From assembly GCA_011050235.1 (NCBI GenBank), contig DRGC01000077.1, forward strand, positions 1 to 33,361: a stretch of 33,361 nucleotides of DNA, written 5' to 3'. This DNA is from Phycisphaerae bacterium. GTDB lineage: Bacteria > Planctomycetota > Phycisphaerae > SM23-33. The position numbers and the translations under genes were made by a program. Under the pieces are notes generated by a model, which worked only from the letters and a program-made list of their open reading frames with translations, was not told the DNA's origin and did not search any database. This document shows, in pieces, positions 1,586-8,907 of this stretch. Positions within the stretch are counted from its first letter, which is position 1. Each line of letters starts with the position of its first letter.

Positions 1586-1731
1586 CCGGGCGGCAGCGGG
1601 GCGTGCGGATGCATCGTGTCTCGTGGAAGAAAACGGTCGCATCTGTGTCCCGTCTGGCCGTGCAGGGGAGCAAGGGCTTTCGCCGCTCCCCGGGTTGATC
1701 ATTGTCGCAAGTCGTTTGGGAAGGACAAGGC

Positions 1732-3924
1732 ATGTGGGAATGGATAACGAGAACGTGGATGAGGCCTTGGGAGTTCTCTGAAGGCGACAATGCTGGGCGC
1801 ATCACGACGTTGAGTAGTTCGTGCATCGTCAGTGTTGCCCTTCTCGGTTTCGCGTTGCCACTGGGGTGCCGAGAGCAAGCCACCCAATCGAGTCAGATCG
1901 AGGCGGGCAATGCCCGTGAGGTCCTCGCCGAGCGTGAGAGCGGAACGGAGAGCCTTGAGGCCGCGGTGACCGCTTGCAAAGAGGCCTTGAAGGAGCATTC
2001 TCGCGAGCGCGCTCCACTGGCTTGGGCCAGGGCGCAACACAACCTGGGCAATGCTCTGGCAGACCTTGGCGATCATGAAAGCGGAACGGAGAGTCTTGGG
2101 GCCGCGGTGGTCGCCTTCAAAGAGGTGTTGAAGGAGTACACCCGCGAGCGTGTTCCACTGGCTTGGGCCATGGCGCAAAACAAGCTGGGCAATGCTTTGC
2201 TGGACCTTGGCAAGCGCGAAAGCGGCACGGAGAGTCTTGAGGCCGCAGTGACGGCCTTCAAAGAGGCGTTGGGGGAGTACACTCGCGAGCGAGTTCCGCT
2301 TAAGTGGGCGATGACGCAAAACAACCTGGGCATAGCCCTGTGGGCCCTCGGCAAGCGTGAAAGCGGCGCGGACAGTCTTGAGGCCGCGGTGGTCGCCTAC
2401 AACGAGGCCTTGAAGGAGTTTACTCGCGAGCGCGCTCCGCTCAATTGGGCAATGATGCAAAACAATCTGGGCATAGCCCTGCAGGTCCTTGGCATGCGTG
2501 AAAGCGGCACGGAGATGCTTGAGGCCGCGGTGATCGCCTATGAAGAGGCGTTGAAGGAGTATACTCGCGAGCGTGTTCCACCCGATTGGGCCATGACGAA
2601 AAACAACCTGGGCGCTGCCCTGCAGATCCTTGGCGAGCGTGAGAGTGATACGGAGATGCTTGAGGCCGCGGTAACCGCGTATGAAGAGGCATTGAAGGAA
2701 TATTCTCGCGAGCGTGTTCCACTCAAGTGGGCCATGACGCAAAACAACCTGGGCATAGCCCTTCAGGTCCTTGGCGAGCGTGAAAGCGGCACGGAGATGC
2801 TTGAGGCCGCGGTGATCGCCTATGAAGAGGCGTTGAAGGAGTATACTCGCGAGCGTGTTCCGCTCGATTGGGCCATGACGCAACACGGCCTGGGCTATGC
2901 CCTGTGGTCCCTTGGCAAGCGTGAAAGCGGAACGGATAGCCTTGAGGCCGCGGTGACCGCCTGCAACGAGGCCTTGAAGGAGCGTACTCGCGAGCGTGTT
3001 CCGCTCAAGTGGGCGGCGACGCAAAACAACCTGGGCAGAGCCCTGTGGGCTCTCGGCGAGCGTGAAAGCGGAACGGAGAGGCTTGAAGCCGCGGTGATCG
3101 CCTACAAAGAGGCGTTGAAGGAGTATACTCGCGAGCGTGTTCCGCTCAATTGGGCAATGATGCAATACAATCTGGGCATAGCCCTGCAGGTCCTTGGCGA
3201 GCGTGAAAGCGGCACGGAGCGGCTTGAGGCCGCGGTGACCGCCTACAACGAGGCGTTGAAGGAACGTACTCGCGAGCGTGTTCCCCTCGATTGGGCGTCG
3301 ACACAGAACAACCTGGGCAATGCCCTGCAGGGTCTTGGCGAGCGTGGAAGCGGCACGGAGATGCTTGAGGCTGCGGTGACCGCCTACAAAGAGGCGTTGA
3401 AGGAACGTACTCGCGAGCGTGTTCCACTCGATTGGGCGTCGACGCAATACAATCTGGGCAGGGGCCTGTGGGTCCTTGGCAAGCGTGAAAGTGGAACAGA
3501 TAGCCTTGAGGCCTCGGTGATCGCCTACAAAGAGGCGTTGAAGGAACGTACTCGCGAGCGTGTTCCGCGCGATTGGGCGGCGACGCAAAACAATCTGGGC
3601 ATGGCCCTGCAGGTCCTTGGCAAGCGTGAAAGCAGAACGGATAGTCTTGAGGCCGCGGTGACCGCCTACAAAGAGGCCTTGAAGGAACGTACTCGCGAGC
3701 GTGTTCCACTAAAGTGGGCCATGATGCAATACAGCCTGGGCAGTGCCCTGCGGGCCCTTGGCGAGCGTGAAGAAGGCACGGTGAATCTGACCAAGGCCGT
3801 GGAAGCTTACAGGAACGCTATCGAAGTGTATGAGGCGACCGGCCCATTGCGCTACTTGGAAGGGGCCCGCAGTAACCTCGCCAAGGCCGAGGCGATGATC
3901 GACTTGCGTCAAGGCGAGGAGTAG
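1732..3924 (+). CDS. Exported protein of tandem 47-residue TPR-type repeats
   Basis: A 730-residue protein. The first 46 residues end in a hydrophobic export signal with a possible but imperfect lipobox (LPLG-C). From nt 1936 onward there are thirteen repeats of exactly 47 residues with consensus features ESGTE-LEAAV-AYKEALKE-TRERVPL-WA-TQNNLG-AL--LGER, then a fourteenth degraded unit that caps the array. A half unit (NAREVLAER) precedes the first. The pattern is a known tetratricopeptide variant forming pairs of antiparallel helices, normally a protein-binding scaffold. No catalytic domain is attached. The ATG at 1732 is preferred over one 30 bases upstream because AAGGA lies 6 bases before it. 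The DNA repeats are nearly identical in places, so copy number may vary. Partners are unknown. Confidence 0.85.
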   Translation: MWEWITRTWMRPWEFSEGDNAGRITTLSSSCIVSVALLGFALPLGCREQATQSSQIEAGNAREVLAERESGTESLEAAVTACKEALKEHSRERAPLAWARAQHNLGNALADLGDHESGTESLGAAVVAFKEVLKEYTRERVPLAWAMAQNKLGNALLDLGKRESGTESLEAAVTAFKEALGEYTRERVPLKWAMTQNNLGIALWALGKRESGADSLEAAVVAYNEALKEFTRERAPLNWAMMQNNLGIALQVLGMRESGTEMLEAAVIAYEEALKEYTRERVPPDWAMTKNNLGAALQILGERESDTEMLEAAVTAYEEALKEYSRERVPLKWAMTQNNLGIALQVLGERESGTEMLEAAVIAYEEALKEYTRERVPLDWAMTQHGLGYALWSLGKRESGTDSLEAAVTACNEALKERTRERVPLKWAATQNNLGRALWALGERESGTERLEAAVIAYKEALKEYTRERVPLNWAMMQYNLGIALQVLGERESGTERLEAAVTAYNEALKERTRERVPLDWASTQNNLGNALQGLGERGSGTEMLEAAVTAYKEALKERTRERVPLDWASTQYNLGRGLWVLGKRESGTDSLEASVIAYKEALKERTRERVPRDWAATQNNLGMALQVLGKRESRTDSLEAAVTAYKEALKERTRERVPLKWAMMQYSLGSALRALGEREEGTVNLTKAVEAYRNAIEVYEATGPLRYLEGARSNLAKAEAMIDLRQGEE
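1936..3768 (+). repeat. Tandem array of thirteen 141-bp units
   Basis: Thirteen 141-bp units in frame within the TPR gene. Similarity persists at silent positions; for example 2496-2579 and 2778-2861 are identical over 84 bases and lie exactly two units apart. This implies recent duplication or gene conversion rather than old protein-level conservation. Confidence 0.9.
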
Positions 3925-7628: not shown

Positions 7629-8174
7629 TCAAGGAACTTCGAAGATGCTCTGGACCTTCACCAGCGTCAGGTCTTCCGGAAATGCGTGATAGGAAAACAC
7701 GTGCAGATGCCGCGTTTTGGCGTCGTAGTCGAGATAGGAAAACGGCGTCAACGGCGGCCGCCGCATCCATGTCGGGAAAGGCACAAACAGCCCGCGCTTG
7801 GCCCCTTGGCGGGCCAGGTCGTGGTGGGTCTTGGCGAAGACCTGTTCGCTCATCGTCTCGACCTGGAAGTTCATCATGTAACGCAGACCCTTGGCCTCGA
7901 CGTGTTCGTGTTCCTTTTCGCCGCGGAAGGGGAGCTCGGCCAGCAGGCCCCGGCGGGGCAGCTCAGAATCGGCGTCGGCGAGGACCTCCACCATCCACTG
8001 CTTGCCACGCCCGAACATGATCACGTGGGAGCAGCCCGTCACCCACAACTGCGCTTCATAATGCTTGCGGGCCAGCCGTTCGCCGCTGTGAATCTCGAAC
8101 AGCTCGGGGTGAAGCGGGCGATCGTATAAATAGTATCGCAGCGAGGCGACGCGCTGTTGATGTCCAATGGCCAT
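7629..8174 (-). CDS. DUF2617-like protein
   Basis: A 181-residue soluble protein without signal peptide or membrane segment. Features recalling DUF2617 are a central GCSHVIMFG segment and a C-terminal YHAFPEDLTLVKVQSIFE segment; the biochemical role of that family is unknown. The ATG at 8174 is chosen because a minus-strand TATAAT (8214-8219) lies between it and the next upstream in-frame start at 8267, and a GAAGAGAG purine stretch precedes it. A STAS protein follows 40 bases downstream, hinting at a regulatory role, but this is only context. Confidence 0.65.
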   Translation of the reverse strand: MAIGHQQRVASLRYYLYDRPLHPELFEIHSGERLARKHYEAQLWVTGCSHVIMFGRGKQWMVEVLADADSELPRRGLLAELPFRGEKEHEHVEAKGLRYMMNFQVETMSEQVFAKTHHDLARQGAKRGLFVPFPTWMRRPPLTPFSYLDYDAKTRHLHVFSYHAFPEDLTLVKVQSIFEVP

Positions 8175-8213: not shown

Positions 8214-8242
8214 ATTATAGCCCGGATGGGCCGAACAGAAAA
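8214..8242 (-). promoter_or_regulatory. Promoter of the DUF2617-STAS pair
   Basis: A perfect minus-strand TATAAT (8214-8219), with TTTTCT (8237-8242) 17 bp upstream as a weak -35. The predicted start near 8207 leaves a 33-base leader with a purine-rich ribosome site. The -35 lies 8 bases from the large inverted repeat at 8250. Confidence 0.45.
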
Positions 8243-8249
8243 CCCCTGT

Positions 8250-8335
8250 ATAAAGGGGACGGAGCACTAATTAGCAACCCAAGACCAGACGCACCGGGGC
8301 GAGCGCATGGCTAATTAGTGCTCCGTCCCCTTTAT
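8250..8335. repeat. Perfect 26-bp inverted repeat (REP/REPIN or MITE-like)
   Basis: The 26 bases at 8250-8275 are the exact reverse complement of 8310-8335, with a 34-base GC-rich spacer between. The arms contain AAAGGGGACGGAGCACTAAT and are more AT-rich toward the loop (TAATTAGC). Arms of the AAAGGGGAC type resemble REP motifs mobilised by REP-associated tyrosine transposases, recalled from other genomes rather than checked here. The element fills the intergenic space between the DUF2617-like gene and the DUF2062 gene, contains no ORF, and could also act as a terminator for the operon ending at 8353. Confidence 0.7.
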
Positions 8336-8352
8336 TCGCCGGCAGGCGCCCA

Positions 8353-8907
8353 TCAGTCGTCGTCGTCCGTCGTCGCCGGTGGCTCGCGGTGGCGGCGGTA
8401 TCGGTGCGGCAGCTTCAGCCGCAAATGCGGGCGGGCCTTGCGGTAGTAGATCACCCCGTAGTAGGCCCCGACATACACGATCGCCGCCAGCACCAGGCCG
8501 ATGAGCAGGCTGCCCACCCACAGGGGCCAGACGATCTCGTTGGTCAGCTCCCACCAGTTCTGGATCTTCCGCCACCAGGTGTCGTGGCCGGTCAGGGCGG
8601 CCCCCCAGTTGATCTCCTTGGCCGGGCTCCCGAGGATCCATCGCCCAAAGAGGTAGTTGGGATAATAGATGGGCACCAGTGTCGCCGGGTTGGACACCCA
8701 CACGAACGGCAGGCCGACCAGCTTGTTCGCCCCAAACAGCAGGCACAGCAACAGCAGTCCGACCGTCTGCAGGCCGATCGCCGGCGTCCAGGCGGCGAAA
8801 ATGGCCAGGGCAATACTCAATGCGATGCGATGCGGCGTGTCGTCCACGTGCAAGATACGGTACTTGAAGAAGCTCCCCAGCCAGCTGATTGTTGTCTTGA
8901 TCGGCAT
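8353..8907 (-). CDS. DUF2062 membrane protein
   Basis: A 184-residue protein with the DUF2062 pattern: an N-terminal amphipathic stretch, a hydrophobic hairpin (about residues 28-65), a WVSNPATLVPIYYPNYLFG loop, and another pair of membrane segments near 125-150, then a basic tail ending in acidic residues. DUF2062 proteins often lie beside, or are fused to, glycosyltransferases; their activity is unknown. The start codon overlaps the stop of the upstream GT9 gene by one base (TGATG), and GGGGAG stands 6 bases before it, so translation is coupled. It is the last gene of the envelope operon and probably acts at the inner membrane in glycolipid assembly or transport. Confidence 0.8.
   Translation of the reverse strand: MPIKTTISWLGSFFKYRILHVDDTPHRIALSIALAIFAAWTPAIGLQTVGLLLLCLLFGANKLVGLPFVWVSNPATLVPIYYPNYLFGRWILGSPAKEINWGAALTGHDTWWRKIQNWWELTNEIVWPLWVGSLLIGLVLAAIVYVGAYYGVIYYRKARPHLRLKLPHRYRRHREPPATTDDDD

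Follow-up and report, generated by a model that had tools for sequence, protein, structure and literature searches.

A probable RAYT-linked miniature element between the DUF2062 and DUF2617 genes of a Phycisphaerae bacterium

Seventeen base pairs past the stop codon of a DUF2062 gene, a Phycisphaerae draft genome carries a long perfect hairpin sequence. Is this a native regulatory structure of the neighbouring gene, or a mobile element that landed there, and if the latter, of which kind? The original prediction, a possible REPIN or MITE, proved right in substance: the unit occurs in four copies, is absent from the orthologous site in relatives, and shares an arm core that brackets a Y1 transposase gene in a sister genus. 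Taken together, our analyses make it very probable that the element is a non-autonomous miniature moved in trans, in which a short remnant separates the two inverted ends of a RAYT-like transposon (IS200/Y1, HUH tyrosine).

A multi-copy inverted repeat at an otherwise conserved gene junction

A repeat search of the window (the whole 33,361-nt stretch analysed here) confirmed the predicted inverted repeat exactly. Its 26-bp arms (8250-8275 and 8310-8335) are 100% complementary, with 0 mismatches, are separated by 34 nt, and form the longest perfect inverted repeat in the window, the runner-up being 13 bp. In 100 dinucleotide-preserving shuffles the longest arm averaged 11.65 bp and never exceeded 18 bp. 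Folded as a single strand, the element reached -31.8 kcal/mol (z -8.0). The arms contain no GTAG or GTGG tetranucleotide, and their motif, GGGGACGG, departs from the GGGGWSAS consensus at one position. An Rfam search of the window gave a single match, a tRNA elsewhere and none on the element, and plasmid BLAST gave no match. The features of the locus are as follows.

8250..8335, no strand: whole 86-bp non-autonomous inverted-repeat element (repeat search and copies elsewhere in the genome)
8250..8275, plus strand: left arm ATAAAGGGGACGGAGCACTAATTAGC; its core AAGGGGACGGAGCACT exactly matches the ends of the RAYT element in the sister genus
8276..8309, no strand: 34-nt spacer, ending CATG before GCTAATTAG
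8310..8335, minus strand: right arm, the exact reverse complement of the left arm
8353..8907, minus strand: neighbouring DUF2062 gene, stop codon 17 bp from the element (context)
7629..8174, minus strand: neighbouring DUF2617 gene, start at 8174 (context)
8214..8219, minus strand: TATAAT, probable -10 box of the DUF2617 gene, present in the orthologous gaps of other genera

The repeat is multi-copy rather than single-copy. Four copies lie in the draft genome, an assembly of 4.01 Mb in 98 contigs that is 95.5% complete: the window copy on contig C77 (8250-8335), two on contig C44 about 0.9 kb apart (C44a and C44b; locus L008, 1608-1693 and 2583-2665), and one on C97 (L009, 1571-1654). In two other copies, uninterrupted stretches of 29 and 24 of the 34 spacer bases are identical to the window spacer; the fourth copy matches it over 17 nt and then has a 3-nt deletion. 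Because the spacer is conserved together with the arms, it was the whole 86-bp unit that was copied. Flanking sequences are unrelated except in the C44 pair, where about 24 bp of flank (AAAGACCTCGCCCACCTCATT) from the first copy recur at the second; this pair therefore arose by a local event in which the flank was included. No direct target duplication was visible beside the window copy.

The two arms are identical to each other in the window copy and in C44a, differ at three positions in C44b, and also differ in the C97 copy. These mismatches in other copies are uncompensated, so that perfect pairing in the window copy is better read as youth or recent correction than as demonstrated structural selection. 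The strong structural selection first offered as one explanation cannot be read from the perfect identity.

Each of the four copies lies 0-17 bp from the stop codon of a neighbouring open reading frame (ORF). The window copy is 17 bp away, the C97 copy and C44b about 5-6 bp, and C44a overlaps. We do not claim a preference for gene 3' ends from four copies, and one sister-genus doublet that we examined (L052) sits 123 bp past a stop codon. An arm supplies a GTEH C-terminus and a TAA stop to ORFs that enter it, as in a 357-aa ORF on C44 that takes its stop codon from C44a (L008, 555-1628), a 170-aa ORF in another family (L083, 1505-2017), and window 8315-8746 on the minus strand. A second repeat family of similar style (AAATAGGGACAGTCACCTATTTC) also forms inverted doublets (L008 on C44, 2486-2554; C44:15368-15423; C64:464-1228), which cluster at the end of contig C44, alongside elements of the window type.

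The element is intergenic, as originally stated, but it lies between two co-directional minus-strand genes, DUF2062 and DUF2617, rather than between two operons. Nor did a consensus scan find a good -35 element next to it. The probable -10 box begins about 30 bp downstream of the repeat's end, and a TATAAT some 40-50 bp before the DUF2617 start recurs across the gaps of other genera, placing the element just upstream of the probable DUF2617 promoter. Elsewhere in the window (1702-3924), a 740-aa ORF is built of many similar TPR-like repeats of about 45 residues (ESGTExLEAAVxAYKEALKExTRERVPLxWAxTQNNLG).

The two genes are adjacent in the same order in 10 other genomes of the family (8 other genera; the count leaves out an eleventh, weak match, L107). 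The hairpin is absent from the gap in 10 of these 10, and is thus not a terminator conserved at this site. In the other genomes the gap measures 49 to 339 bp, with several values close to 100 bp; in the window it spans 178 bp, or 92 bp once the element is removed. Since the gene pair is conserved without the element elsewhere and the gap is of ordinary size when it is subtracted, comparison of these sites indicates an insertion in this lineage, although the relatives compared are distant and the empty site is not base-exact. For genome annotation, the hairpin is thereby explained as an insertion and not as a native regulatory structure.

RAYT-like genes bracketed by the arm core

Searching some 85,000 species for AAGGGGACGGAGCACTWA gave 17 stretches. 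Fifteen of these lie in three Planctomycetales MAGs, which coordinates and sequence match to the genomes G024, G025 and G027 of one other genus (g22) in the same family. There, the 16-bp core AAGGGGACGGAGCACT brackets RAYT-like genes as inverted ends, in L053/L076 and in L067. In L053, for example, the core at 769 (plus) and 1510 (minus) flanks a RAYT-like gene at 832-1503, and the inverted ends around these genes read AATTAAGGGGACGGAGCACTTAATTAT. The encoded protein matches Pfam Y1_Tnp and, at 65.5 bits, falls below the cut-off of 80 for NCBIfam REP_Tyr_transpos; its HUH motif (NHVH) and tyrosine motif (YVERN) are intact. A PDB sequence search with this transposase gave no match. The association with a REP-associated tyrosine transposase that the original prediction raised is thus found in the sister genus, where the gene is bracketed by the same arm core.

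Neither the genome itself nor 397 genomes of the class, the contig collection of 85,000 species or viral contigs yielded a transposase gene with exactly the window's arms (the CTAATTAGC version). The 16-bp core matches the ends of RAYT-like genes, while no gene carried the inner CTAATTAGC of the window family. The host draft genome contains two RAYT-like genes, both with other ends. The one on C2 is 51% identical to the sister-genus RAYT, has AAATAGGGACAG ends and is accompanied by its own doublet. The other, on C16, is present as a start only, with left end GGGGACACACACCTATTT, and is cut within about 200 bp by the contig end; its end sequence GGGGACAC fits GGGGWSAS in the same genome as the window. 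Other Y1 genes of the genome (on C76, C61, C6 and C12) were checked, and none carries GGGGACGGAG ends. A general scan for GGGGAC...GTCCCC showed no excess over a reversed-pattern control, so this motif alone is not evidence.

The C2 gene and its flanks (L047, C2:134000-136400) look like an intact element that has a repeat family of its own: a RAYT-like gene at 647-1430 (226 aa from ATG), with AAAATAGGGACAGACCCTATTTTT upstream and an inverted doublet of AAAATAGGGACAGACCCTATTTTT downstream. The C16 locus (L081, 1395-1690) encodes a RAYT N-terminus followed by other sequence after about 34 residues, and its left end AATCAGGGGACACACACCTATTTCTCTTGACG resembles the start of the sister-genus RAYT leader (TCTTGACG).

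Sister-genus doublets and the origin of the window family

The core also forms doublets of about 100 bp in the sister genus. In three of these the spacer matches the RAYT gene leader at 35-36 of 44 bases, a similarity equalled by none of 1000 shuffles (0/1000). Each spacer reaches as far as the start-codon position, which reads ATGGCAA in L063, and is followed directly by the right arm. The doublets are thus built as internal-deletion derivatives of the autonomous element would be. The junction is common to all three and speaks for a single deletion that then spread, although deletion may also have recurred at this place. Because the sister genus retains both the autonomous element and doublets structured as its internal deletions, the origin of the doublets can be read from sequence.

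The window spacer does not resemble the leader from the sister genus, 736 of 1000 shuffles having aligned as well. It does enter ATGGC before TAATTAG, at a position analogous to the start codon; this is only a hint, since it comprises five bases and the C44 copies read AGGGC. We offer only tentatively the broader reading that the family records the birth of RAYT-dependent miniatures. On this reading, a deletion would have removed the transposase gene, beginning immediately behind the start codon and reaching the right end; the leader and both ends would have remained and spread. The window family may have arisen independently in this way, with its parent gene lost since then. In our main interpretation, too, the window family would have formed by the same deletion route as in the sister genus, its own transposase having been lost or left unassembled, and the parent RAYT-like gene would carry AAAGGGGACGGAGCACTAATTAGC ends and a AACCCAAGACCAGACGCACC leader. 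As for movement, the ends, once single-stranded, would most likely form a hairpin; a Y1 transposase acting in trans would recognise and cut them, and the unit would be copied or moved into new intergenic sites. We infer this mobility from the multi-copy unit, its orthologous absence and the shared arm core.

Three other explanations were weighed. A plain intrinsic terminator or mRNA-stabilising hairpin of the DUF2062 gene, evolved in place, would account for the strong fold 17 bp past the stop codon, and a small terminator-like stem with a T run does overlap the element edge (8258-8243). However, the big hairpin is followed directly by ACAGGGG, with no T run, and would have a 34-nt loop that is conserved as a spacer in all four copies; it is missing from orthologous gaps, and the arm mismatches elsewhere are uncompensated. 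Termination as the origin of the sequence is refuted by the copies elsewhere, and we consider this account as a whole highly unlikely. Once inserted, the element may nevertheless act secondarily as a terminator or stabilising hairpin.

A MITE derived from an ordinary DDE insertion sequence, with terminal inverted repeats of 26 bp, would agree in size and in its perfect terminal repeats with bacterial MITEs (PMC3733652), but the gene that the arm core flanks in the sister genus encodes a Y1 transposase, and the window site lacks a visible target duplication; we give this explanation very little credence. We regard as just as improbable a REPIN of the E. coli/Pseudomonas type with its canonical GTAG tag. 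Such an element would likewise be an intergenic, hairpin-forming inverted doublet with a short spacer and a RAYT link in relatives, yet the arms here have no GTAG/GTGG foot, four copies are few for a REPIN-type family, and the transposase belongs to the longer, TIR-associated RAYT type. A miniature derivative of a RAYT-like element is a more exact description than REPIN because the arms are terminal inverted repeats close to the GGGGWSAS type, one base off its consensus, and not GTAG-tagged REPs.

Comparison with known systems

Bacterial MITEs (RUP, NEMIS, ERIC and others) are non-coding, 70-300 bp long, and have terminal inverted repeats of 15-30 bp (PMC3733652). The window element resembles them in length, terminal inverted repeats and absence of coding capacity, but differs in that its related autonomous element carries a Y1/HUH transposase and its site has no target duplication. 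REPINs, the functional analogue of this kind of repeat, are high-copy, non-autonomous inverted REP doublets linked to RAYTs, of which clusters duplicated with their flanks have been reported, and RAYTs are usually partnered by GTAG-tagged REPs (Bertels and Rainey, 2011; PMC3116915). In common with them, the element is an extragenic, non-autonomous, hairpin-forming inverted doublet with a short spacer and a RAYT link; in contrast to them, its family lacks the GTAG tag, numbers four copies and has a spacer conserved between copies.

The nearest known kind is probably that of the TIRtrons, or TIRYT repeats. The names TIRYT and TIRtron were given to RAYT genes that lie between long terminal inverted repeats, many of them with GGGGWSAS in common (Di Nocera et al., 2013; PMC3733652); their repeats occur as dimers or clusters in some genomes, and Planctomycetes are among the hosts discussed. 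Most fall in subclass 2.1 of PMC6006769, which is probably the one that corresponds to the kind compared here. The likeness lies in a sister-genus RAYT-like gene between long terminal inverted repeats with a GGGG motif, and in repeats also dispersed as dimers (four here). The differences are that GGGGACGG is one base off GGGGWSAS, that the arm and spacer sequences represent a new family, and that the cognate transposase gene was not found in the 95.5% complete draft assembly. Since the GTAG tag and high copy number of REPINs are lacking, we assign the element to the TIRYT-associated kind and describe it, from its sequence, as a putative new family within it, with a motif one base off and without its own transposase found. 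In the literature searched, non-autonomous repeats linked to TIR-type RAYTs are treated in outline only, and the formation of repeat families is left open. The element itself is ordinary in kind; what is mildly interesting is the direct view that the sister genus, with its autonomous element and deletion-structured doublets, gives of a likely mode of birth.
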